Below are positions 11,385 to 23,663 of a stretch of 35,781 bases of DNA, one piece after another. How positions within the stretch are numbered: position 1 is the first letter of the stretch; the number at the start of each line of letters is the position of its first letter. The stretch is from Flavobacteriales bacterium. Lineage in GTDB: Bacteria; Bacteroidota; Bacteroidia; Flavobacteriales_C; GCA-002722245. The notes under the pieces are model-generated. The model did no database searches. It was not told the DNA's origin and saw only the letters and a list, made by a program, of their open reading frames with translations. The translations under genes and the position numbers were made by a program. Location: contig PBJD01000025.1 of assembly GCA_002720635.1 (NCBI GenBank), forward strand, positions 1-35,781. Direction: 5' to 3'.

Positions 11385-11464
11385 CGACTAATTAACATTT
11401 AATTATGGAATAGGAATTGAATGTAACCATGTTATATATTGTGAACATTATTATTTTGCAGAAG

Positions 11465-14113
11465 ATGAAAGCCATATTTTTCATATCATTTTTATTTTGT
11501 ATTCTAACTGGCTTCGGTCAGAAAGAGTATAAATATACTGAGGTCAAAAAAAATGCCGCCAGAATTGAGTTTTTAAACTTATCTAATGAGGAATTCACAG
11601 AGCTCCCCTCTATAATTGAGACATGCAAAAATCTTAAAAAGTTAAAATTGAACAACAATCGTTTAACTTTTTTGCCTGACTGGTTAAAAAAAATAGAAAG
11701 TATTGAAGAACTTGATATTTCGGGTAACAGAACATTAAATATTAACCAGGCATTTTCAGTGATAAGTCAGCTCCCTAATCTTAAAAAGCTTGTTGCAAAC
11801 CATTGCAATATGTTTTATTTACCCGTTGCCATAAGAAGAATCGAAACATTAAAAGAAGTGAGTATTTCTGATAACCACATCAAGTACTTACCTCCTATTT
11901 TTGAATATACATTTTGGGAAAAGCTGGATTTATCGTACAATTGTATTGATACACTTCCAAGCACCTTAGTATTCATGAATACACTTAAATCATTGGATTT
12001 AAGTTACACTCCTGCAATTGAGAATAAATTCACTTATTATACAGTTGAATTTCTGAAAAATTTAAAAACACTTAAACTTTCTGGAGCCAATTTTTTACCG
12101 AAGGAAATTTATAAAATTGACTTCATAAAGGAACTTGTATTAACCAACGGAACTTTTGAAAGACTTCCAGAAGAATTTGAAAAAATAAAAAATCTAAAAA
12201 AACTGGATATCAGAGGCTGTGAAAATTTAAAAATTTCCGATTTGGTTGAGTTGCTGACTGGTAGCTACTCAACACTTCGAGACTTGAAAATTGGTCATAA
12301 ATTCTTAAACACAATTCCTTATAATATTTCAAAACTCAAGAAAATTAACAGTTTAACAATTGATAATTCCTGCTTAGAAAAACTATCGAGTTCTATTGCG
12401 CGTTTTAGGGGTAAAGACATTTCTTTTAAAGGATGCAGGTTCCCGAGTCCTTCTGACGTTTTCAAAGAAATAGGAAAAAGTAAAAAAATTAAAAGAATTT
12501 ATATCAATAATTGTGTTTTTGGCAAATCCGACTGGAAAATAGGAGCTTCTGATAAATTTGAGGAAATTCACATCAGGAACTGTTATTTAACCTACCTTCC
12601 TTTAAATATTGAAGATTTTCCAAAACTTAAACTCCTTAATTTATCAGGCAATAAAATCGCAAAAAATAAGATTACCTGGAAAACCCCAAAAACAATTCTT
12701 GGAGCAGATTATCAAACTTTATCTTATGAAGCTAAAGAGCTGAATAATTGGAAATATGTCCAGAATCAAAAAACAATAAAACGAATGATTTATACTGAAG
12801 TGGGTGATTTGTTCACGCTTCCCTCTGGTGCAAAAGTTGAGGTCCCTGCCGAGTGTTTCATAGGAACAGGTAATACCACTATTATTGGAAACGTAAAACT
12901 GGAAATCAAAGAATTTAGAACCCAGGCTGATTATGCATACACCAAATACCCTACATATTTACCAAACGGAGATGTTTCTGATACTAAATATGCCATTGAA
13001 ATTAGAGCTTTTTGCAAAAACAAAGAAGTTTTTGTGAAATCTGAAAAACCAATTTTAATTTTCCCTCAATTTAAAAAGGAATATGCTCTGGATAAATATT
13101 TTTATTTGGAATACAAATCTAAATGGCAAACACTCAATCAAAACACCAATATATGTATAAACAATTCTGAATCTCAAATTATCCCCAAATGCATGGATTA
13201 TTCAAACATTCCGAAAATAGGACAAGACTTAAAAGTATCAAAAGTCTTTGTTAAACTTATGCGAAAAAAAAAGAAGAAAAAACTAAATTTTGAAATCACT
13301 CCTGAATATGGTTACAGAGATCAATTACTGAACCCTTTTGGGGACAAAATTAAAGGATATCCAGAACTTAAACATTACAAAGGGATAAAGTGGAGATATG
13401 TTGGCGACAGTTTAGAAAAAGATTTAAAAAAACTTTATTTTCTTTCTGATGAAGCAAAAATTGAAAAATTGAAAAAATACAGTTCACTAAAAGCTTACGT
13501 TTTAGATATTAAAGACATTAGAATATATCCCAATCCAAATGACGATAATTATTTAATTCAATTTATTCAAGGTAGAGATACTTTTTCCATTGAAGCTCTC
13601 CCTTTTATCACAGTATATAAAGCAAAAAAAATCCAGAGATGGCATAGAGTAAAATATAGAAAATACAAGAAGTCATTAGAAAAAAGAAAGGAAAAATGGC
13701 GAAAAATGGACACAACTTTCATAAATCATTATGAAAAATTTGAAGCCCATTTAGAAGCCTTCAGAATATATAATCTAAAAGCTCTCTATTCCATTAACAA
13801 ACAAAATAACAATAAAAAACCTGTACAAACTTTAAAAATATATAAACCTGGTTTATATCAAATGGCTATCCCGTTGCTCCTCAACAAAGGAGAATTGAAG
13901 AAACCAGTTTATTACATTAAAGGGAAACGATTTTATCCTAAGAAAGTACTTGTTAGTAATATATCCAAAGGATACAACTTTTGGTCAGACCCAAAGGATA
14001 TACCCAAGGAAAAAGGGATTTATAAAATCAGCACTGTTTTAGATGATATCTTGTACTCAGGCACATGGGGAATCAATAATAAAGTGACATTTGAAAAAGT
14101 AACCACAAAATGA
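11465..14113 (+). CDS. Secreted leucine-rich-repeat protein with large C-terminal region
   Basis: 882 residues from ATG 11465, which gives a clean signal peptide (KAIFFISFLFCILTGFGQ). In-frame starts further upstream (TTG 11417, ATG 11429) would put extra residues before it. Residues 35-395 form about 13-15 leucine-rich repeats of roughly 22-25 residues, with units such as LKKLKLNNNRLTFLPDWL and LKLLNLSGNKI; several middle repeats are degenerate. Residues 455-560 begin FTLPSGAKVEVPAECF and resemble a segment seen in other Bacteroidetes surface proteins (IP-x-x-F followed by a G-x-V-x-L-x-I-x-x-F strand). The last 250 residues are very lysine-rich. No sorting domain or membrane anchor is seen. 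Repeats of this type usually bind proteins or surfaces, so an adhesive or recognition role is possible; this is inference. It overlaps the next gene by 4 bases. Confidence 0.72.
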   Translation: MKAIFFISFLFCILTGFGQKEYKYTEVKKNAARIEFLNLSNEEFTELPSIIETCKNLKKLKLNNNRLTFLPDWLKKIESIEELDISGNRTLNINQAFSVISQLPNLKKLVANHCNMFYLPVAIRRIETLKEVSISDNHIKYLPPIFEYTFWEKLDLSYNCIDTLPSTLVFMNTLKSLDLSYTPAIENKFTYYTVEFLKNLKTLKLSGANFLPKEIYKIDFIKELVLTNGTFERLPEEFEKIKNLKKLDIRGCENLKISDLVELLTGSYSTLRDLKIGHKFLNTIPYNISKLKKINSLTIDNSCLEKLSSSIARFRGKDISFKGCRFPSPSDVFKEIGKSKKIKRIYINNCVFGKSDWKIGASDKFEEIHIRNCYLTYLPLNIEDFPKLKLLNLSGNKIAKNKITWKTPKTILGADYQTLSYEAKELNNWKYVQNQKTIKRMIYTEVGDLFTLPSGAKVEVPAECFIGTGNTTIIGNVKLEIKEFRTQADYAYTKYPTYLPNGDVSDTKYAIEIRAFCKNKEVFVKSEKPILIFPQFKKEYALDKYFYLEYKSKWQTLNQNTNICINNSESQIIPKCMDYSNIPKIGQDLKVSKVFVKLMRKKKKKKLNFEITPEYGYRDQLLNPFGDKIKGYPELKHYKGIKWRYVGDSLEKDLKKLYFLSDEAKIEKLKKYSSLKAYVLDIKDIRIYPNPNDDNYLIQFIQGRDTFSIEALPFITVYKAKKIQRWHRVKYRKYKKSLEKRKEKWRKMDTTFINHYEKFEAHLEAFRIYNLKALYSINKQNNNKKPVQTLKIYKPGLYQMAIPLLLNKGELKKPVYYIKGKRFYPKKVLVSNISKGYNFWSDPKDIPKEKGIYKISTVLDDILYSGTWGINNKVTFEKVTTK

Positions 14114-14891: not shown

Positions 14892-15803
14892 TTGTCAACC
14901 ATTAATACACATAAAAAAAATACTCTGATTGATGATCTGAAAGAGTTTACGAAATTGCGTTTAGCTTTGCTGGTTGTTTTCTCGGCAGGGATTACATACC
15001 TTACCGCACTTAAGTTCAATAATCAAGAAATTGATTGGCTATCCACATTTTGGCTATGTTTTGGCGGAATGCTCGTCACTGTAAGTTCAAACGGTTTTAA
15101 TCAAATTTTTGAAAAAAACCTTGACAAATTAATGTCAAGAACTAAAAACCGACCTCTGCCAACGGAAAGAATGTCTCTAAAAACGGCTTGGTTCATAACG
15201 TTAATTTCCGGAATTGCCGGATTCTTAATTTTATGGTTGAAGCTCAATCTTTTGACAGGCATATTAGGGTTATTGAGCTTAAGCTTATACTCTTTTGTTT
15301 ATACTCCAATGAAACAAAAAACACCATGGGCTGTTTTAATTGGAGCATTTCCTGGAGCCGCTCCTCCTTTAATTGGCTGGACGGCATGTGAAGCCGTTGA
15401 TTTCATGTGGATATCACCGGCAGCTTTATCTGTATTCTGCATTCAATTCATGTGGCAATTCCCTCATTTTTGGGCAATTGCCTGGAAATGTCATGACGAT
15501 TACAAAAAAGGAGGGTTTCAACTACTCCCTTCTCCAACTGGAAAAGATTCGAAAAGTGCATTTCAAATTTTAATTTATACATTATTTATGGTTCCAATCG
15601 CGATGCTTCCGTGTCATCCAGACTTCGGTGTTGCTGGCTTAACCTCCAGTATAATTGTACTATCGCTTGGAATTATAATGCTTTATCCTGCAATTATGCT
15701 GATGAAAACATTAGATGAAAAATGGGCGACAAAACTAATGTTTGCCTCTTTTATATACTTACCGCTAGTGCTTATTACATTTTTAACCGATCAATTTTAT
15801 TAA
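14892..15803 (+). CDS. cyoE: Protoheme IX farnesyltransferase (heme O synthase), TTG start
   Basis: UbiA-family membrane prenyltransferase that converts heme B to heme O for the terminal oxidase. 303 residues. The first prenyl-diphosphate motif is NLDKLMSRTKNRPLP at about 76-90, and the second is the WKCHDDYKKGGFQLLP region at about 198-213. Seven to nine membrane helices are expected. The start is TTG 14892, since no ATG occurs before the second membrane helix region and the cytoplasmic N-terminus is then of normal length. It is first in a plus-strand run with two subunit III genes, subunit IV, two SCO-type proteins and DUF420; the next gene starts 3 bases later. Confidence 0.93.
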   Translation: MSTINTHKKNTLIDDLKEFTKLRLALLVVFSAGITYLTALKFNNQEIDWLSTFWLCFGGMLVTVSSNGFNQIFEKNLDKLMSRTKNRPLPTERMSLKTAWFITLISGIAGFLILWLKLNLLTGILGLLSLSLYSFVYTPMKQKTPWAVLIGAFPGAAPPLIGWTACEAVDFMWISPAALSVFCIQFMWQFPHFWAIAWKCHDDYKKGGFQLLPSPTGKDSKSAFQILIYTLFMVPIAMLPCHPDFGVAGLTSSIIVLSLGIIMLYPAIMLMKTLDEKWATKLMFASFIYLPLVLITFLTDQFY

Positions 15804-15806
15804 GTT

Positions 15807-16544
15807 ATGAAAAGTAGTATCCCAAAAGAAGAAAGATTAGAAATTAAAAAGAAGACAAGTAAAAACATGATGTATTTGGCCATTGGGTCAATGATTATGC
15901 TTTTTCTGGGACTGGCAAGTGGCTATTATGTTTCTAAAACAGGTCCTGTATGGGTTTCAATTACCGTTCCGGATGAGTTTTTTATCAGTTCGGGTGTTAT
16001 AATTTTAAGCAGCATTACTTTTTTTATTGCATCAAAACTCGCCAAAAAAGGGAAATTTAACCTGGTTCCCATTTTTGTAATTATCACCTTGATACTTGGT
16101 TTAGTATTTGTAAAATTTCAAAGGGATGGATGGAAACATATGAAGTCCAGAGGAATGTATTTAAGTGACGTTGTGAAAATTGATGGTTTGCTTAAAAACA
16201 AAGATGTTGAATATGGAGTAGACTATAAAATTTTCATGAACGATAACGAATTAAAATACGTGGATGGTGTATTTTACGACAAAAGAGACGAATACAATTC
16301 AATTCCAATGTATCCAAGTTTAGATGCAGACAATGTTTCAAGCAGTTGGATGTATATCTTAACGGGGTTGCATTTAGCGCATTTGATTGGGGGTATAATA
16401 TCCTTAATTGTGGTGACAATCAAGAGTTTACTTAAAAAGTATAATGAAAATGATATTGTCGGAATTGAAGTTAGTTCCATTTATTGGCACTTTTTAGATT
16501 TTTTGTGGTTATCTTTGTTATTCCTACTCTATTTTGTAGGCTAA
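15807..16544 (+). CDS. Cytochrome c oxidase subunit III, first copy with loop insertion
   Basis: Heme-copper oxidase subunit III, inner membrane. 245 residues and about five helices. The C-terminal family signatures are LTGLHLAHLIGGIISL and IYWHFLDFLWL. Between helices there is a hydrophilic stretch at about residues 108-172 (from KFQRDGWKHM to SLDADNV) that is longer than in the second copy and contains charged and tyrosine-rich sequence. Tandem subunit III genes are usual in flavobacterial clusters. Starts 3 bases after cyoE, so translation is probably coupled. Confidence 0.88.
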   Translation: MKSSIPKEERLEIKKKTSKNMMYLAIGSMIMLFLGLASGYYVSKTGPVWVSITVPDEFFISSGVIILSSITFFIASKLAKKGKFNLVPIFVIITLILGLVFVKFQRDGWKHMKSRGMYLSDVVKIDGLLKNKDVEYGVDYKIFMNDNELKYVDGVFYDKRDEYNSIPMYPSLDADNVSSSWMYILTGLHLAHLIGGIISLIVVTIKSLLKKYNENDIVGIEVSSIYWHFLDFLWLSLLFLLYFVG

Positions 16545-16572: not shown

Positions 16573-17262
16573 ATGGCAGGAGAAGTAAGCAAAGCTATTC
16601 CAGCTAAAGAACTTTGGGAAGGAGGGAGATCACCCTTTAGCATGAGCTATGGTAAAATGATGATGTGGCTCTTCCTGATTTCCGACGCTTTAACATTTGG
16701 TGCATTCATTGTGTCATTAGGATGGTTTCGTTACACCTATCCATCCTGGCCGGTTTCTGACCAGGTATTTTTCCACTTTCCTTTCGTAAGCGGACATGTT
16801 CCATTGGGTTATGTTGCTTTCATGACGTTTATTCTCATTATTTCCTCTGTAACTATGGTTCTTGCAGTTGAGGCCGGTCACAGAAATGATAAGGCAGGTG
16901 TCGTTAGGTGGATGGTTGCCACCATAATTGGTGGCTTTATTTTCCTTGGATCACAGTTTTGGGAATGGTCAACATTCATAGCTGGAACGGATGGTTTAAT
17001 TGAAACCTGGGGTGATAATGCAACCATCACATCAAATCCTTATGGACCACCACAATATGCGCAGTTTTTTTATTGTGTAACCGGTTTCCACGGATTTCAT
17101 GTTTTTTCAGGAGTTGTAATTAACATTGTTATTTGCGTTAATGCCATAGGAGGAACATATGCGAGAAGAGGTCACTATGAGATGGTCGAAAAAGTTGGTT
17201 TGTACTGGCACTTCGTAGATTTAGTGTGGGTATTTGTATTTACCTTCTACTATTTGCTTTAA
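16573..17262 (+). CDS. Cytochrome c oxidase subunit III, second copy
   Basis: 229 residues, five or more membrane helices. Signatures are GSQFWEWSTF, TGFHGFHVFSGVVINI and YWHFVDLVWVFVFTFYYLL, all typical of subunit III of caa3/aa3-type oxidases. Compared with the preceding copy it lacks the long polar loop but has a shorter one at about 140-160. Subunits I and II are not in the window, so they must be encoded elsewhere. Confidence 0.93.
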   Translation: MAGEVSKAIPAKELWEGGRSPFSMSYGKMMMWLFLISDALTFGAFIVSLGWFRYTYPSWPVSDQVFFHFPFVSGHVPLGYVAFMTFILIISSVTMVLAVEAGHRNDKAGVVRWMVATIIGGFIFLGSQFWEWSTFIAGTDGLIETWGDNATITSNPYGPPQYAQFFYCVTGFHGFHVFSGVVINIVICVNAIGGTYARRGHYEMVEKVGLYWHFVDLVWVFVFTFYYLL

Positions 17263-17289: not shown

Positions 17290-17670
17290 ATGGAGAGAGA
17301 CGACATTAAGGAGTATTCAATAGGAGCTCAACACTCTGAAGAAGAAGGAAGAAAAATCCGAAAAAACATTATTAAAGTAACTATACTTCTTACGATAATT
17401 ACAGCAGTTGAAGTTATTGTAGGGATATTATATTCAAGAAGTAATCCCGATGTTTCAGAAAGTGCCTGGACTGCCATAAAATACGGATATATTATTCTTA
17501 CACTCATAAAAGCAGGCTACATTGTAATGGAATTTATGCATTTAGGACATGAAAGAAAAGGAATGAAATTAACAGTATTGGTACCTTACATAGTTTTCAT
17601 TATTTACTTAATCTTCATTTCAATAACTGAAGCTTTAGCCGTAAGTGACTCTAACTTTCCCCTAAACTAA
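17290..17670 (+). CDS. Cytochrome c oxidase subunit IV family protein
   Basis: 126 residues with three membrane helices (about 26-47, 62-78, 94-113). The last two contain YIILTLIKAGYIVMEFMHLGHE, given here as two parts YIILTLIKAGYIVM and EFMHLGHE, the pattern of prokaryotic subunit IV. Placed between subunit III and the SCO-type genes as usual. Confidence 0.88.
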   Translation: MERDDIKEYSIGAQHSEEEGRKIRKNIIKVTILLTIITAVEVIVGILYSRSNPDVSESAWTAIKYGYIILTLIKAGYIVMEFMHLGHERKGMKLTVLVPYIVFIIYLIFISITEALAVSDSNFPLN

Positions 17671-17683
17671 AAAGTATTTGAAG

Positions 17684-18355
17684 ATGGTAGACAAAAAAAT
17701 ATCATCTCCGAAGAAGAAATTACTTTATTTAGGTCTTTTTATTTTGCCTTTCCTAATTGCAATGGGGCTTATTTACATATCTGTAAACCTTGGTACACTT
17801 CCAATAATGAATAATAATGGTGAATTTGTAAAATTAAAATATAAAAATCCACCTGAATACTACACCATACCCGAGTTTTCTCTACCTACATTTAATGATG
17901 ATACCGTTCACTTTCGACACAAAGATTCTGTTTTGTATATGATTACCATGTTCCATAAAGAAAATGTTAAAGAATGGGAAAAGCATGTTATGTATATAGG
18001 CGGTAAAATTATCAAACGGGCAAATAATATAAAGGTCATATCCATTTTCGAAAATGATCGAAAAATGAGTATATGGAAGGAATCTCCAATAGAATATGTT
18101 AAATCTGTTTCTAAAAAGTGGTATTTAGCTCATGCATCTGAGAATGAATTTGAAACAATCAAAAACAATTTAAAGCTCAAACTAAATGACAGTACTCAAA
18201 TGTATGATTATGTTTTAGTAGATAAAGATGAGCATATCAGGGCCCACTGTTCCATTAATGATGCAAAAGTTGCAAGGGATATTCCCAAAATGTTTAAATT
18301 ATTAAATAATCAATATGTCCCGAGGAAGTTGGATATTAAACAGATTAAAAAGTAG
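17684..18355 (+). CDS. SCO-like membrane-anchored protein lacking the CxxxC motif
   Basis: 223 residues from ATG 17684 (an in-frame TTG at 17678 is possible). One N-terminal membrane anchor (about 13-33) is followed by a periplasmic domain. The layout follows the SCO thioredoxin fold: EFSLPTFNDDTV, then SVLYMITMFHKENVKEWEKH, KVISIFENDR, and YDYVLVDKDEHIRA near the end. Where SCO proteins have FTTCxxxC, this one reads MITMFHKENV, so both copper-binding cysteines are absent. The conserved histidine also does not align clearly. It overlaps the canonical SCO gene by 41 bases. It may be a structural or regulatory partner in copper delivery; that is inference. Confidence 0.7.
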   Translation: MVDKKISSPKKKLLYLGLFILPFLIAMGLIYISVNLGTLPIMNNNGEFVKLKYKNPPEYYTIPEFSLPTFNDDTVHFRHKDSVLYMITMFHKENVKEWEKHVMYIGGKIIKRANNIKVISIFENDRKMSIWKESPIEYVKSVSKKWYLAHASENEFETIKNNLKLKLNDSTQMYDYVLVDKDEHIRAHCSINDAKVARDIPKMFKLLNNQYVPRKLDIKQIKK

Positions 18356-18935
18356 TTTATTACTTTTTATTATCGTTGCTTGTAGTTCCCCAAAGCAGCC
18401 TCTTCCTGTATTCGGCCAAAAACAAATTAATAATAAAGGAGAAGAAATTGATTATACTGTTTCTGATTTTAAATTTTTAAACCAACACAATGAAATCGTT
18501 ACTTTGGATAAATATAAAAATCAAGTATATGTAGCAGATTTCTTTTTCACTACCTGCGCAACTATATGTCCAAAAATGACGAAGCAATTAGTTCGTGTTC
18601 AAAAAAAATTACAAGGAAAAAAATTTCATATTATTTCTCACACCGTTAATCCAGAATTTGACACCACTGATATATTATTAAATTACGCAATCAAAATGGA
18701 TGCTGAACTTAGCAATTGGGATTTTGTAACTGGTGATGCTCAAAAAATATACAGGCAGGCTGTCTCATATAAATTAACAGCAATAAAAGATACTACCCAA
18801 CTCATACCATTTGTTCACAGTGAATATCTTGTTTTGGTAGATAAAAAGAAGAGAATAAGAGGTTTGTATGACGGAACAAATACTGAAGAAGTAAATCAAC
18901 TAATCGAAGATATAGAATGGCTAATTCAGCAATAA
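18315..18935 (+). CDS. SCO1/SenC family copper chaperone lipoprotein
   Basis: Delivers copper to the CuA site of oxidase subunit II or acts as a thiol reductase on it. 206 residues. The N-terminus is a lipoprotein signal with lipobox IVAC (Cys23). The thioredoxin-fold domain has the copper motif C81-A-T-I-C85 in FFTTCATICPKMT and the ligand histidine at about 168 in FVHSEYLVLVDKK. The start ATG 18315 lies inside the preceding gene, a 41-base overlap; no better start exists, and using it completes the signal peptide. It overlaps DUF420 by 19 bases. Confidence 0.93.
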   Translation: MSRGSWILNRLKSSLLLFIIVACSSPKQPLPVFGQKQINNKGEEIDYTVSDFKFLNQHNEIVTLDKYKNQVYVADFFFTTCATICPKMTKQLVRVQKKLQGKKFHIISHTVNPEFDTTDILLNYAIKMDAELSNWDFVTGDAQKIYRQAVSYKLTAIKDTTQLIPFVHSEYLVLVDKKKRIRGLYDGTNTEEVNQLIEDIEWLIQQ

Positions 18936-19477
18936 ACCCAACACCGGAATTTAAAGAAAAAAAGAGTGTAAAAATTGCCATATGGGCATTTACAGCTGTA
19001 GTTTTTCTGTTGGTAACCTTAATGGGATCAAAAGATTTTCCGAGACCTGATGAAGCACCGGAATTCACTAAAGCTTTACCCACTGTAAATGCAATAATAA
19101 ACTTTTCGTGTTTCATAACACTAATCTTCTCTTTTATTATGATTAAAAAGAAGAATGTAGTTATGCACATGCGCTTAAATACGTTTGCAATGGTTTTGTC
19201 TGTTTTCTTTTTGTTAAGCTACGTTCTTTATCATGTAACAAATAAAGAGACATCTTACGACGGAGACCTTGTGGTTATCTACTATTTTATTTTAGCCACG
19301 CATATTGTGCTATCGGGAATTTCCTTACCCTTTATTTTATTTTCTTATTACCGTGCTTTCATCGGGGATATTAAAGGTCACAAAAAAATCGTAAAATGGG
19401 CTTATCCGGTTTGGCTTTATGTTGCACTTACCGGTCCAATTGTATACCTCATGCTATCTCCATATTACGGACACTAA
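18917..19477 (+). CDS. DUF420 family membrane protein
   Basis: 186 residues, five membrane helices. Contains HMRLNTFAMVLSVFFLLSY, LATHIVLSGISLPFI and the conserved histidines of the family (HMR, YHVT, THIVL, GHKK). DUF420 proteins are regularly linked to cytochrome oxidase assembly genes (the family includes Bacillus CtaM/YozB-type proteins). ATG 18917 overlaps the end of the SCO gene by 19 bases. Confidence 0.88.
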   Translation: MANSAINPTPEFKEKKSVKIAIWAFTAVVFLLVTLMGSKDFPRPDEAPEFTKALPTVNAIINFSCFITLIFSFIMIKKKNVVMHMRLNTFAMVLSVFFLLSYVLYHVTNKETSYDGDLVVIYYFILATHIVLSGISLPFILFSYYRAFIGDIKGHKKIVKWAYPVWLYVALTGPIVYLMLSPYYGH

Positions 19478-19508
19478 TTGACCTTAACTGGACAATTTTG
19501 TATCTTTG
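19478..19508 (+). promoter_or_regulatory. Promoter directly in front of the 77-residue gene
   Basis: TTG (19478-19480), a 20-base spacer, and TATCTTTG (19501-19508) form a full match to the Bacteroidetes promoter. The -7 box ends only 4 bases before the ATG at 19513, so the message should be leaderless or nearly so. The small gene is thus separately transcribed from the oxidase cluster. Confidence 0.75.
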
Positions 19509-19512
19509 CACT

Positions 19513-19746
19513 ATGTTCAAAAAGATTTTAATATTTCTTGTTGTCTTTCTGTTAACTCAACCCGCATCAGCAATGTGCTCGCAATGTAAAGCAATAGCTG
19601 AGCAAAATGATAGCGGTTGGGCAAATGGATTAAACTCAGGCATACTTTTCCTAATGATACCGCCATACCTTATACTAATTGCAATTGTTATCTTTGGATT
19701 TAAAGGAAAAATTAGAGCAGGAATAAAGAATTTTGTAAATTCGTAA
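19513..19746 (+). CDS. Small membrane protein with CSQC motif
   Basis: 77 residues: a signal peptide or first membrane helix (FKKILIFLVVFLLTQPASA), then MCSQCKAIAEQ, a short polar part, and a membrane helix (about 44-64) with a basic tail. The frame is open further upstream, but ATG 19513 gives the signal sequence and sits at the promoter. The cysteine pair just after the predicted cleavage site could bind metal or be redox-active. Similar small proteins are usual after DUF420 in flavobacteria; role unknown, possibly in oxidase assembly. Confidence 0.72.
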   Translation: MFKKILIFLVVFLLTQPASAMCSQCKAIAEQNDSGWANGLNSGILFLMIPPYLILIAIVIFGFKGKIRAGIKNFVNS

Positions 19747-19930: not shown

Positions 19931-19945
19931 ATTGTGAAAATAAAG

Positions 19946-20962
19946 ATGAACAAACCAGGTGTAAAAAACAGTTTAAAAAATAGAATTCTTGTGCTTGATG
20001 GTGCAATGGGATCTTTGATTCAAACTTATAAATTGGAAGAAGATGATTTTAGAGGAGAAAGATTCAAAAATCATTCGCACCCCTTAAAAGGAAACAATGA
20101 TTTACTCGCATTGGTGAGGCCTGATATTTTAAAAGAAATTCACGCAAAATATTTAGATGCCGGAGCAGACATAATCCAAACAAATACATTCTCGGGCACT
20201 ACAATCGCTCAAGCAGATTATGCTTTGGAAAACGCGGTATATGATATTAACTTTCATTCCGCTAAAGTTGCAAAAGAGATTACTGATGAATACACACTAA
20301 AAACCCCAGATAAACCAAGGTATGTTGCAGGTTCAATTGGACCAACAAATCGGACACTCTCGATTTCACCGGACGTCAACGATCCTGGTTTTAGAGCAAT
20401 TACATGGGATGAAATGGTAATTGCTTATAAGGAACAAACTAATGCTCTGATTGACGGAGGTGTGGACATAATATTGGTGGAAACTATCTTCGATACACTA
20501 AATGCCAAAGCATGTTTGTACGCTATTGATGAGATTTTTGAAGAAAAAAACATAAAATTACCCATAATGGTATCAGGAACTATTACTGACGCATCCGGGA
20601 GAACATTAAGCGGTCAAACTGCAGAAGCATTTTTAACCTCAGTTTCACATTTGGATTTATTATCTATTGGATTTAACTGTGCCCTTGGTTCTAAAATGAT
20701 GAAACCCTACTTGGAGGTACTCTCAAAAAACACTGAATATGGTGTAAGTTCTTATCCAAATGCAGGTTTACCCAATGAGTTCGGGGAATATGATGAGTCA
20801 CCGGATGAAATGGCGAAGCAAATTAAAGAATTCTTAGAAGACAACTTGATTAATATAATAGGAGGATGTTGCGGAACAACACCTGAACACATAAAAGCAA
20901 TTGTCCATTTAGCTGCTAAATACGAACCGAGAAAATTAAAAAATAATGAGTTTACATCCTGA
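19946..20962 (+). CDS. Methionine synthase, homocysteine-binding part (split MetH, N-terminal piece)
   Basis: Homocysteine S-methyltransferase domain corresponding to the first module of cobalamin-dependent MetH. 338 residues from ATG 19946; a GTG at 19934 is an in-frame alternative adding four residues. It begins [15 protein letters not shown]. The zinc ligands are C245 (IGFNCALGS) and C308-C309 ([11 protein letters not shown]). The chain ends after this domain; the remaining modules are in the next gene, which overlaps by 17 bases. Splitting at this boundary is known in Bacteroidetes. Expression is under the SAM-I riboswitch. Confidence 0.93.
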
Positions 20963-23663
20963 TTATCGGGGCGAATACAAATACAAATGGCTCAACTTGC
21001 CGTTCATGCGCTTAAGCGGATTAGAGCCTTTGGTTGTAACTCCTGAACTTAACTTTATTAATGTTGGTGAAAGAACCAATGTAACAGGTTCAAGAAAATT
21101 CTTACGATTAATCAAAGAAGAACTTTTTGATGAAGCGCTATCGATTGCTCGAAATCAGGTTGAAAATGGTGCGCAAGTAATCGACATCAACATGGATGAA
21201 GGAATGATAGATGGTGTTTCGGCTATGACTAAATTCCTAAACCTAATCGCTGCTGAGCCTGATATAGCAAGAGTTCCTATTATGATAGACTCTTCTAAAT
21301 GGGAAATAATTGAAGCAGGCTTAAAATGTATTCAAGGAAAGTCCATTGTAAACTCTATTTCACTAAAAGGAGGGGAAGTCGAATTCATTGAACAAGCAAG
21401 AAAAATAAAAAGATATGGTGCAGCGACGATTATAATGGCATTTGATGAAGTTGGTCAGGCCGATACTTATGATCGAAGAATAGAAATTGTAAAAAGAAGC
21501 TATTCGATTTTGACCGGACCTAAAGTAAACTTTCCCCCTCAAGATATAATATTTGATTTAAATGTATTTCCTGTTGCGACAGGTATAGAAGAACATAGAA
21601 AAAATGCACTTGACTTTATTCAGGCAACTCGTTGGGTAAGAGAAAATTTACCCGGAGCACATGTTAGTGGAGGTGTATCCAACGTCTCTTTTTCTTTCAG
21701 AGGAAACAATCCTGTTCGAGAAGCTATGCACTCTGCATTTCTATATCATGCAATTAAAGAGGGAATGGATATGGGAATTGTCAATCCCAGCATGCTGGAA
21801 GTTTACGATGACATTCCTAAAGATTTATTGGAAAAAGTAGAAGATGTGCTTCTCAATCGAAAAGAAGATGCTACAGAAAGACTTTTAGAATTTGCGGAAA
21901 CCGTCGTAGAAACAGCGAAAGAGAAAAAAACGGACAATAAATGGCGTGAAGAATCGGTTGCGAAAAGACTGGAACATTCTCTAGTAAAAGGAATTACAGA
22001 TTTTATAGACGAAGATGTAGAAGAAGCTCGAAAAGCACACGAAAAACCTCTACATGTCATTGAAGGACCTCTAATGGACGGAATGAATGTAGTAGGAGAT
22101 TTATTTGGTTCAGGAAAAATGTTCTTACCACAAGTTGTCAAATCAGCCAGAGTCATGAAGAAAGCTGTCGCTTATCTGTTGCCGTTTTTGGAAGACGAAA
22201 AAGAAGAAGGCAGTTCCGCTGGTAAAATTCTATTGGCGACCGTAAAAGGAGATGTTCATGATATTGGCAAAAACATCGTTGGCGTTGTTCTAGGGTGCAA
22301 TGGATATGAAATTATTGATATCGGGGTGATGGTACCTCCGGATAAAATCATAGCAGCTGCAAAAGAACACAATGTAGATATTATTGGCTTAAGTGGATTA
22401 ATTACTCCATCGCTTGATGAAATGATAACCGTTGCAAAAGAGATGGAAAAAAATGGAATGAAAATTCCATTATTAATTGGTGGTGCAACAACCTCAAAAA
22501 TACACACTGCTGTAAAAATTGAAGAGCATTATAAAGGGGGACAAACAGTATACGTTCTTGACGCATCTCGATCAGTTACAGTGGCTACTAAATTATTGAG
22601 TGAAGAAAAAAAAGAATATGTTCGGGAGATTCAAAATGAATATTCAAGAATGCGTGAGCATCATAAAAACAGAAGAGCTTCTAAAGAAAAAATATCATGG
22701 AGTAAGGCAAAGGCCAATCGTCAGCAGACAATATGGAGTCAAGACATGGTCAAAAAACCAAATTTCATTGGAGTTCAATTATTTGATGATATACCTTTAA
22801 CGGAAATCCGAAATTATATTGACTGGACACCCTTCTTTCAAACCTGGGATTTGCACGGTAGATACCCTGCAATTTTAGAAGACAAAATTGTAGGAAAAGA
22901 AGCCAAGACCCTTCTTGCCGACGCTCATACAATGTTGGATAAAATTATAGCTGAAAAATGGTTGGTCAATAAGGCCGCAGTAGGAATATGGCCAGCAAAT
23001 GCCGTAGGGGAAGATATTGAAGTCTATACCGACGAATCAAGAAATAAAGTATCCGAAAAATTCTTCACCATACGACAACAGCAAAAGAAAAAAGAAGGTT
23101 TACCAAACCACTCTCTAGTGGATTTTATTGCACCAAAAGAATCTGGAGTAAAAGATTATATTGGTGGTTTTGTAGTTACAGCGGGTATTGGTATTGAAGA
23201 ACATATTGAACGATTTGACGCGGATCATGACGATTATAACTCGATAATGCTAAAAGCTTTAGCAGATCGATTTGCTGAAGCCTTCACGGAATTAATGCAT
23301 GAAAAAGTAAGAAAAGAAATTTGGGGATACGCGACCGAAGAAAACTTTAAAAATGAAGAATTAATTAAAGAATCATACAAAGGGATTCGTCCGGCACCAG
23401 GCTATCCAGCCTGCCCAGATCACCTAGAGAAACCAACGCTGTTTAAACTTTTAGATGCAGAAAAATTAACAGGAGTTTCCTTAACAGAAAGCATGGCCAT
23501 GTATCCAACAGCATCCGTTTCAGGTTGGTATTTTGCTCACCCGGAATCAAAATATTTTGGAATTGGTAAAATAGAAAAAGACCAAATTGAAGACTATGCA
23601 AAAAGAAAGGGAGAATCTGTTGAATTTATCGAAAAATGGTTGGGGCCAATCTTAAATTACTAG
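20946..23663 (+). CDS. metH: Methionine synthase, folate/cobalamin/activation modules (split MetH, C-terminal piece)
   Basis: 905 residues carrying the methyltetrahydrofolate, cobalamin and SAM-dependent reactivation modules. The pterin-binding domain starts [16 protein letters not shown] (about 37-52) and contains [16 protein letters not shown]. The cobalamin domain has the axial-ligand motif DVHDIG with His438 and later [13 protein letters not shown] and LIGGATTS. The activation domain ends with [14 protein letters not shown] and the [17 protein letters not shown] segment. Start 20946 overlaps the previous gene by 17 bases; ATG 21006 (MRLSGLEPL) is a possible later start, since homologues often begin shortly before LSGLEPL. 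A weak hairpin follows the stop. Confidence 0.95.

Follow-up and report, generated by a model that had tools for sequence, protein, structure and literature searches.

Why would a bacterial cytochrome c oxidase (cox) operon keep an SCO-like protein that has lost its copper site directly beside an SCO whose site is complete? Sco is described as a copper protein with a CXXXCXnH motif, acting on subunit II together with PCuAC; CtaM is described as a DUF420 protein needed late in oxidase assembly, for the aa3/caa3 oxidases of Gram-positives (both in PMC9145763). The window analyzed here (the whole stretch of 35,781 nt from contig PBJD01000025.1 of a Flavobacteriales bacterium) encodes such a pair, P0001 and P0002. 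The gene order is COX4, P0001, P0002, DUF420, and we refer to the place between COX4 and DUF420 as the slot. The features of the locus are as follows.

14892..15803, plus strand: heme O synthase-type UbiA prenyltransferase (PF01040, 2.9e-49), which we take to be CtaB from context
15807..16544, plus strand: second subunit III-like protein (PF00510, 1.2e-11)
16573..17262, plus strand: cytochrome c oxidase subunit III (PF00510, 1.3e-9)
17290..17670, plus strand: cytochrome c oxidase subunit IV, COX4_pro (PF03626, 3.6e-13)
17684..18355, plus strand: P0001, copper-site-less SCO homologue, 223 aa, with ATG at 17684 and a stop ending at 18355 (ORF and translation, conservation, dN/dS, profile-profile comparison)
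17720..17788, plus strand: N-terminal transmembrane anchor of P0001, aa 13-35, including P22 (hydropathy; model helix 9-34)
17963..17977, plus strand: place of the lost CxxxC in P0001, aa 94-98, NVKEW (by-eye ungapped pairing with VYVADFFFTTCATIC)
18203..18244, plus strand: retained late strand of P0001, YDYVLVDKDEHIRA, with D180 and R186 (both invariant in the 10 proteins of the order)
18315..18935, plus strand: P0002, canonical SCO, 206 aa (PF02630, 2e-23; matches to SCO structures in the PDB; all three ligands)
18372..18383, plus strand: lipobox of P0002, IVAC, with C23 (invariant in 10 orthologues)
18555..18569, plus strand: C81-x3-C85 of P0002 (sequence)
18816..18818, plus strand: His168 of P0002 (sequence)
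18917..19477, plus strand: DUF420/CtaM-type membrane protein (PF04238, 4.7e-37)
19513..19746, plus strand: small secreted CxxCK membrane protein after DUF420 (no Pfam match; the start inside ORF 19396-19746 is our choice)

The small protein directly 3' of DUF420 has a signal peptide, the sequence CSQCK, and one transmembrane segment. A C-x2-C ... G-x-N-x-G[ILV] pattern follows DUF420 in 88 of the 154 slots surveyed below (48 of 75 degenerate and 40 of 79 canonical), and the CxxCK protein is a candidate for a thiol or copper function in oxidase assembly. Farther downstream, what is presumably methionine synthase is split into a homocysteine-methyltransferase ORF and the rest (19934-20962 and 20946-23663), with the same split in L001 and L002. 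Upstream of the operon, 11417-14113 encodes a large protein with leucine-rich repeats by eye, the C-terminal part of which is also present in L001.

The initial annotation had placed P0001 at 17684-18355, overlapping a canonical SCO gene with a C81/C85/His168 set, and had described it as an SCO-like protein that keeps the membrane anchor and the late strand without CxxxC. Closer analysis bore out all of these points. The coordinates are right, and the two ORFs overlap by 41 nt, identically in all five genomes of the genus. The CxxxC region of P0001 is YMITMFHKENVKEW, and the place of the motif reads FHKENVKEW; the pairing of NVKEW with VYVADFFFTTCATIC was made by eye and its exact register is uncertain, as the profile alignment puts gaps there. 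The SCO copper/redox motif CxxxC is absent from P0001 and its nine orthologues, and no distal His ligand is conserved at the aligned column in the order's 10 proteins, L012 alone having His there by alignment; all copper ligands of P0001 are gone. W98 of P0001 is invariant in the 10 proteins. The sole Cys of P0001, C189, lies close to the C-terminus; the 10 P0001-family proteins compared share no Cys across the order's two genera, and the TlpA/ResA-type active-site Cys pair is likewise absent from P0001. The anchor is a single N-terminal transmembrane helix by hydropathy and in the structure model, and the domain beyond it would be periplasmic. In sequence searches, P0002 matched PF02630 and solved SCO structures (2e-22 for the latter), and all three ligands and a lipobox were found in it. 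The genome holds a copper-site-less SCO together with a canonical one, as in plants with HCC2, and here the two are adjacent.

Searched as a single sequence, P0001 gave no significant match in Pfam (PF02630 included), NCBIfam, or the PDB. When the 10 orthologues were combined into a profile, matches appeared in 65 of 396 class genomes, the best one beyond the order being a slot SCO beside DUF420 (1.8e-10). In profile-profile comparisons, the P0001 family aligned with the 10 neighbour SCOs over 174 columns (probability 94.2, E 1.2e-7) and with 79 canonical slot SCOs over 212 columns, the anchor included (probability 98.5, E 3e-15). These alignments point to a homology to SCO that is remote within the order.

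A structure model of P0001 built from three orthologues (mean pLDDT 59.3, pTM 0.56; core mostly 70-84, residues 30-76 poor) has the order strand-helix-strand-helix-strand-helix-strand-strand-helix. Foldseek against the PDB put human SCO1 at ranks 1-3 (E 0.002-0.005; TM 0.32-0.45, by target 0.41-0.45), with no match under E 0.001. By VIA-align, the model reached Z 7.7 with yeast Sco1, tied with tryparedoxins at about 8, and Z values below 8 may reflect no more than a shared arrangement; for the predicted model, this result shows a thioredoxin-type domain rather than SCO alone. An earlier model, with neighbour-family rows in the alignment, had a mean pLDDT of 44 and peroxiredoxins as best matches, and it was not used as evidence because MAFFT appears to misplace paralogues. 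The thioredoxin-fold order of SCO that had been read from the letters is thus found in the predicted structure, with human SCO1 as the best PDB match and a core of moderate quality; the outcome that the initial annotation had named as refuting, a predicted structure without an SCO-type thioredoxin fold, did not arise, and we assign P0001 a thioredoxin-type SCO fold with moderate confidence.

A protein search of 100 genomes (this one and its relatives) gave 14 matches, namely the genome itself, all four others of the genus, all five of the sister genus, and four distant SCO proteins. The arrangement of COX4, degenerate SCO, canonical SCO, and DUF420 occurs in all 10 genomes examined of the order, with P0001 71-77% identical within the genus, 29-32% identical to the sister genus, and in the same position throughout. 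The mean dN/dS of the P0001 family is 0.054 in the genus (2 of 10 pairs computable) and 0.207 in the sister genus (7 of 10 pairs), the pairs left out being saturated at silent sites. The corresponding means (genus/sister genus) are 0.118/0.189 for the neighbour SCO, 0.069/0.089 for COX4, and 0.078/0.091 for DUF420; in the sister genus, the value of the P0001 family is about twice those of COX4 and DUF420 but like that of the canonical SCO. With the gene order intact in all 10 genomes and dN/dS low, these sequence comparisons indicate that P0001 is not decaying and is kept by purifying selection.

The slot was then surveyed across the class. DUF420 was found in 362 of the 396 genomes drawn from the class. 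Reading covered 190 loci, namely 180 picked for their spread over families, 9 from the order, and the window. COX4 and DUF420 occur together in 157 of these, and an SCO-family ORF is present in 154 of the 157 (the exceptions being L090, L114, and L128). Of the 33 loci left out, which have no COX4 match, 17 contain no SCO-family ORF, one (L112) holds a further pair, 11 have every ligand column filled (L096 among them, with an extra residue in the motif), and the other 4 are L055, L094 (cut short), L102, and L156. We found that 79 of the 154 slots hold a single canonical SCO, 42 a single SCO without at least one ligand, and 33 a pair, and in every pair the upstream copy is degenerate and the downstream one canonical. 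Here, degenerate means that not all three ligand columns are filled (n = 75), and one of the 79 canonical proteins, L170, was classed from its CxxxC. The degenerate slots are spread over 23 families and the single canonical ones over 36, with both kinds in 7. Full and partial decay are both seen, 12 of the 75 degenerate proteins keeping both Cys columns without an aligned His, a call that rests on the alignment and is least sure in family f5. By the patterns used, all 75 have a transmembrane anchor and no lipobox. Collectively, the same position in relatives, to which the initial annotation had pointed as a check, holds a degenerate SCO in 10 of 10 genomes of the order, and a copper-site-less slot SCO is not peculiar to that order; it is widespread in the class. 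In the literature searched, which lacks most subscription papers (e.g., the 2007 Sco genome survey, Banci and co-workers), we found no description of a copper-site-less SCO in bacteria.

Two further observations concern individual families. The upstream copies of f19 (L065, L120, L123, and L202) keep CxxxC, but their aligned His column holds Phe or Tyr, and they are possible intermediates that could still do thiol chemistry. In f63, the slots of L090 (2670-3209) and L114 (2552-3172) contain an ORF whose N-terminus is hydrophobic and which went unrecognized by the SCO profile applied, possibly a still more diverged SCO copy.

What remains of the protein once the copper site is gone was assessed by column conservation in the 75 degenerate proteins, with the 23 families weighted equally. 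Values are fractions of the rows with a letter at the column; the degenerate rows have an occupancy of about 0.7-0.8 over the first three quarters of the alignment, rising to near 1 at its end. From canonical to degenerate proteins, the ligand columns fall from 1.00 to 0.33 and from 1.00 to 0.32 for the two Cys and from 1.00 to 0.10 or less for His, and the ligand surroundings (FTTC, CP, VDP, and TG) decay as well. The transmembrane Pro (column 19; P22 in P0001) goes from 0.94 to 0.97 at an occupancy of 0.76, and the late-strand columns are kept (L182, 0.97 to 0.91; D184, 1.00 to 1.00; R190, 1.00 to 0.98). Other kept columns are L-P of the linker (0.94/0.79 to 0.80/0.69), Y193 (0.83 to 0.82), W142 (0.99 to 0.78), and L211 (0.99 to 0.84). 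Of these residues, P0001 retains the Pro, the LP pair, and the L, D, R, W, and L, and it lacks two residues common to most other degenerate slot proteins, with A187 for Gly and C189 for Tyr. The retained columns would form an interface that needs no copper, and some of them may be needed only for folding.

Another SCO is present in all 75 degenerate-slot genomes, adjacent in 33 and away from the slot by PF02630 in 42, and no degenerate slot without a backup SCO was seen among them. The 39 away-from-slot proteins that were read all have both Cys and a plausible His, and the remaining 3 score 72-92 bits; ligands were read in the second SCO of 72 of the 75 genomes. Single-canonical genomes have a second PF02630 match in 52 of 79 cases (a match only, ligands not read) and one match only in 27. 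The cutoff was E 1e-3 for the 42 single-degenerate genomes and 1e-8 for the 79 single-canonical ones, and the second SCOs of all 42 also pass the stricter value. Site loss is associated with a second SCO at a Fisher P value of 1e-9. This test ignores kinship, and its 33 pairs carry a second SCO by their very definition; restricted to the 42 single-degenerate genomes, it gives an uncorrected 1.7e-6. Across 13 independent pairs, an average of 6.3 differ in the second SCO in that same direction, 0 in the opposite one, and 6.7 show no difference (median P of 0.03, range 0.002-0.125). In the present genome (78% complete), P0002 is the only strong PF02630 match (84 bits), and a weak TlpA-like protein also just passes the cutoff (19.6 bits, or 24.5 with its neighbours). 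Its COX2 keeps the CuA motif CNKICGASHYNM and the CuA ligands, and none of the order's 10 genomes gave a match for PCuAC. This COX2 (L279, C45) appears by eye to contain a long insert in a 467-residue frame, and it scores only 23 bits with PF00116 though the CuA motif is intact.

The P0001-family profile scores 83.5 against nine f11 slot SCOs and 103.1 against all 79, versus 51.3 against the neighbour family (10 sequences), and the alignment with the slot SCOs extends through the anchor. On these grounds, with 83.5 and 51.3 coming from comparisons of nearly equal depth, a recent tandem duplication of P0002 was rejected as the simplest reading. Because P0001 is closer to the slot SCOs by profile and shares their anchor and place, the degenerate protein is probably the operon's resident SCO and the lipoprotein P0002 the newcomer, with support from the trees that is moderate and in part contrary. 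The proposal of a non-metal-binding paralogue beside an active one therefore stands in part: an active-looking SCO is adjacent, but P0001 is probably not a copy of it, judging from position, anchor, and profile scores.

One group of the SCO tree (support 86, unstarred) unites 16 rows of downstream copies, from the genus, f52, f28, and f19, with 28 of the 45 SCOs encoded elsewhere in genomes; the downstream copies of the sister genus, f54, f37, and f2 fall outside it. A simple pattern finds a lipobox in 20 of 33 downstream copies, 25 of 45 SCOs elsewhere, 1 of 79 single canonical slot proteins, and 0 of 75 degenerate ones; the f54 downstream copies are transmembrane. The SCO tree (quick method, long branches) needs 6 state changes, of which 4 are forced by starred branches, with a support of 74 for the large degenerate group, and the neighbour tree (DUF420 plus COX4) needs 25, of which 13 are forced; such changes do not tell gain from loss or transfer. 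Degenerate copies of f40, f20, and f27 are nested among canonical SCOs. The degenerate copies of the class may have one origin or several, and the SCO tree is compatible with either a separate or a shared loss in P0001's order.

We favor, with a probability of roughly 0.5, the reading that P0001 serves the aa3-type oxidase as a docking or assembly partner that carries no copper. The resident SCO, anchored in the inner membrane, would have lost its copper site while selection kept the rest of the domain. In the resulting division of labor, the copper-free anchored SCO would keep the SCO docking function during assembly, when it would hold or present a cox subunit such as subunit II, and lipoprotein P0002 next to it would supply copper and thiol chemistry to CuA. 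The retained transmembrane Pro and L-x-D-x5-R strand would be the binding surface, the partner would be an oxidase subunit, and P0001 and P0002 would act together. A partner or scaffold role in CuA assembly, as the initial annotation had suggested, is consistent with the sequence data, which a permanent oxidase subunit would explain just as well. Because it lacks the ligands, P0001 is not classed as an SCO copper chaperone; it is an SCO homologue with a possible role at the same place.

The main rival holds that P0001 is a permanent accessory subunit of the oxidase or its supercomplex that uses the SCO fold structurally. Its gene directly follows those of subunits III and IV, all 75 degenerate slot proteins are anchored in the membrane, and a motif is conserved without catalytic residues. 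However, P0001 adjoins SCO and DUF420/CtaM, both assembly-type genes, the same position is occupied by a full copper-site SCO in 79 slots, and no solved oxidase subunit chain matched P0001, L130, L138, or one profile, the few queries used, so that we judge this reading somewhat unlikely. Another reading takes P0001 out of oxidase assembly and gives it a regulatory role or one in redox or stress balance, as has been proposed for plant HCC2. That protein is without the motif, oxidase activity does not depend on it, and in yeast it rescues an oxidative-stress phenotype (PMC3971200 and PMC6307045). For P0001, such a role is less probable still, as its gene stays in the cox operon and no Cys is common to both genera of the order, which leaves no thiol chemistry evident. 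A new metal or ligand site is improbable: H79, H101, H150, H184, and C189 are kept in all five proteins of the genus, but these are 71-77% identical, so that conservation there says little, and only H101 also occurs in the sister genus (7 of 10 in all). That P0001 is a decaying duplicate without function, as the loss of all copper ligands and the fast divergence (about 30% identity between genera) might suggest, is very improbable given an ORF open in 10 of 10 genomes, a dN/dS well below 1, and a constant position in the order, the 41-nt overlap constraining only the last residues.

Among known systems, the SCO1/SenC chaperones (PF02630; B. subtilis YpmQ and human SCO1) share with P0001 the anchor, the thioredoxin-type order, the cox operon context, and profile-profile homology; P0001 differs in having neither CxxxC nor the His, and hence no SCO-type copper site or thiol chemistry, and in having no Pfam match of its own. 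TlpA/ResA thiol reductases share the thioredoxin-type fold and are among the structure matches, whereas P0001 has no active-site Cys pair. CtaM (DUF420) is a neighbour in the locus and an unrelated membrane protein with four or five transmembrane segments. In its features, P0001 resembles the known precedent, plant HCC2, a mitochondrial, transmembrane-anchored SCO homologue without the Cys/His ligands that coexists with a canonical SCO (PMC3971200 and PMC6696091). HCC2 is eukaryotic and dispensable for oxidase activity (PMC3971200), whereas P0001 is encoded inside a bacterial cox operon, and site loss among bacterial slot SCOs was read in 23 families. A 2019 review calls the ability of copper-site-less SCOs to stand in for other SCOs "very surprising" and asks for research on the role of SCO apart from its thioredoxin and metallochaperone activities (PMC6696091).

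More tentatively, the SCOs of cox operons may share an ancestral task, independent of copper, in the biogenesis or structure of the oxidase, carried by the anchor and the L-x-D-x5-R strand, and Bacteroidota may repeatedly have handed the copper task to a second, often lipid-anchored SCO, leaving the resident as a docking or scaffold protein. If true, copper chaperone function would be separable from what SCO does in the complex. Site loss in many bacterial families at one fixed operon position, with the motifs kept, provides a natural mutagenesis series and a genetic system for the question that the review raises. A look-alike kept by selection beside a normal copper-delivering SCO, in many relatives, suggests that the family has a second, copper-free job.
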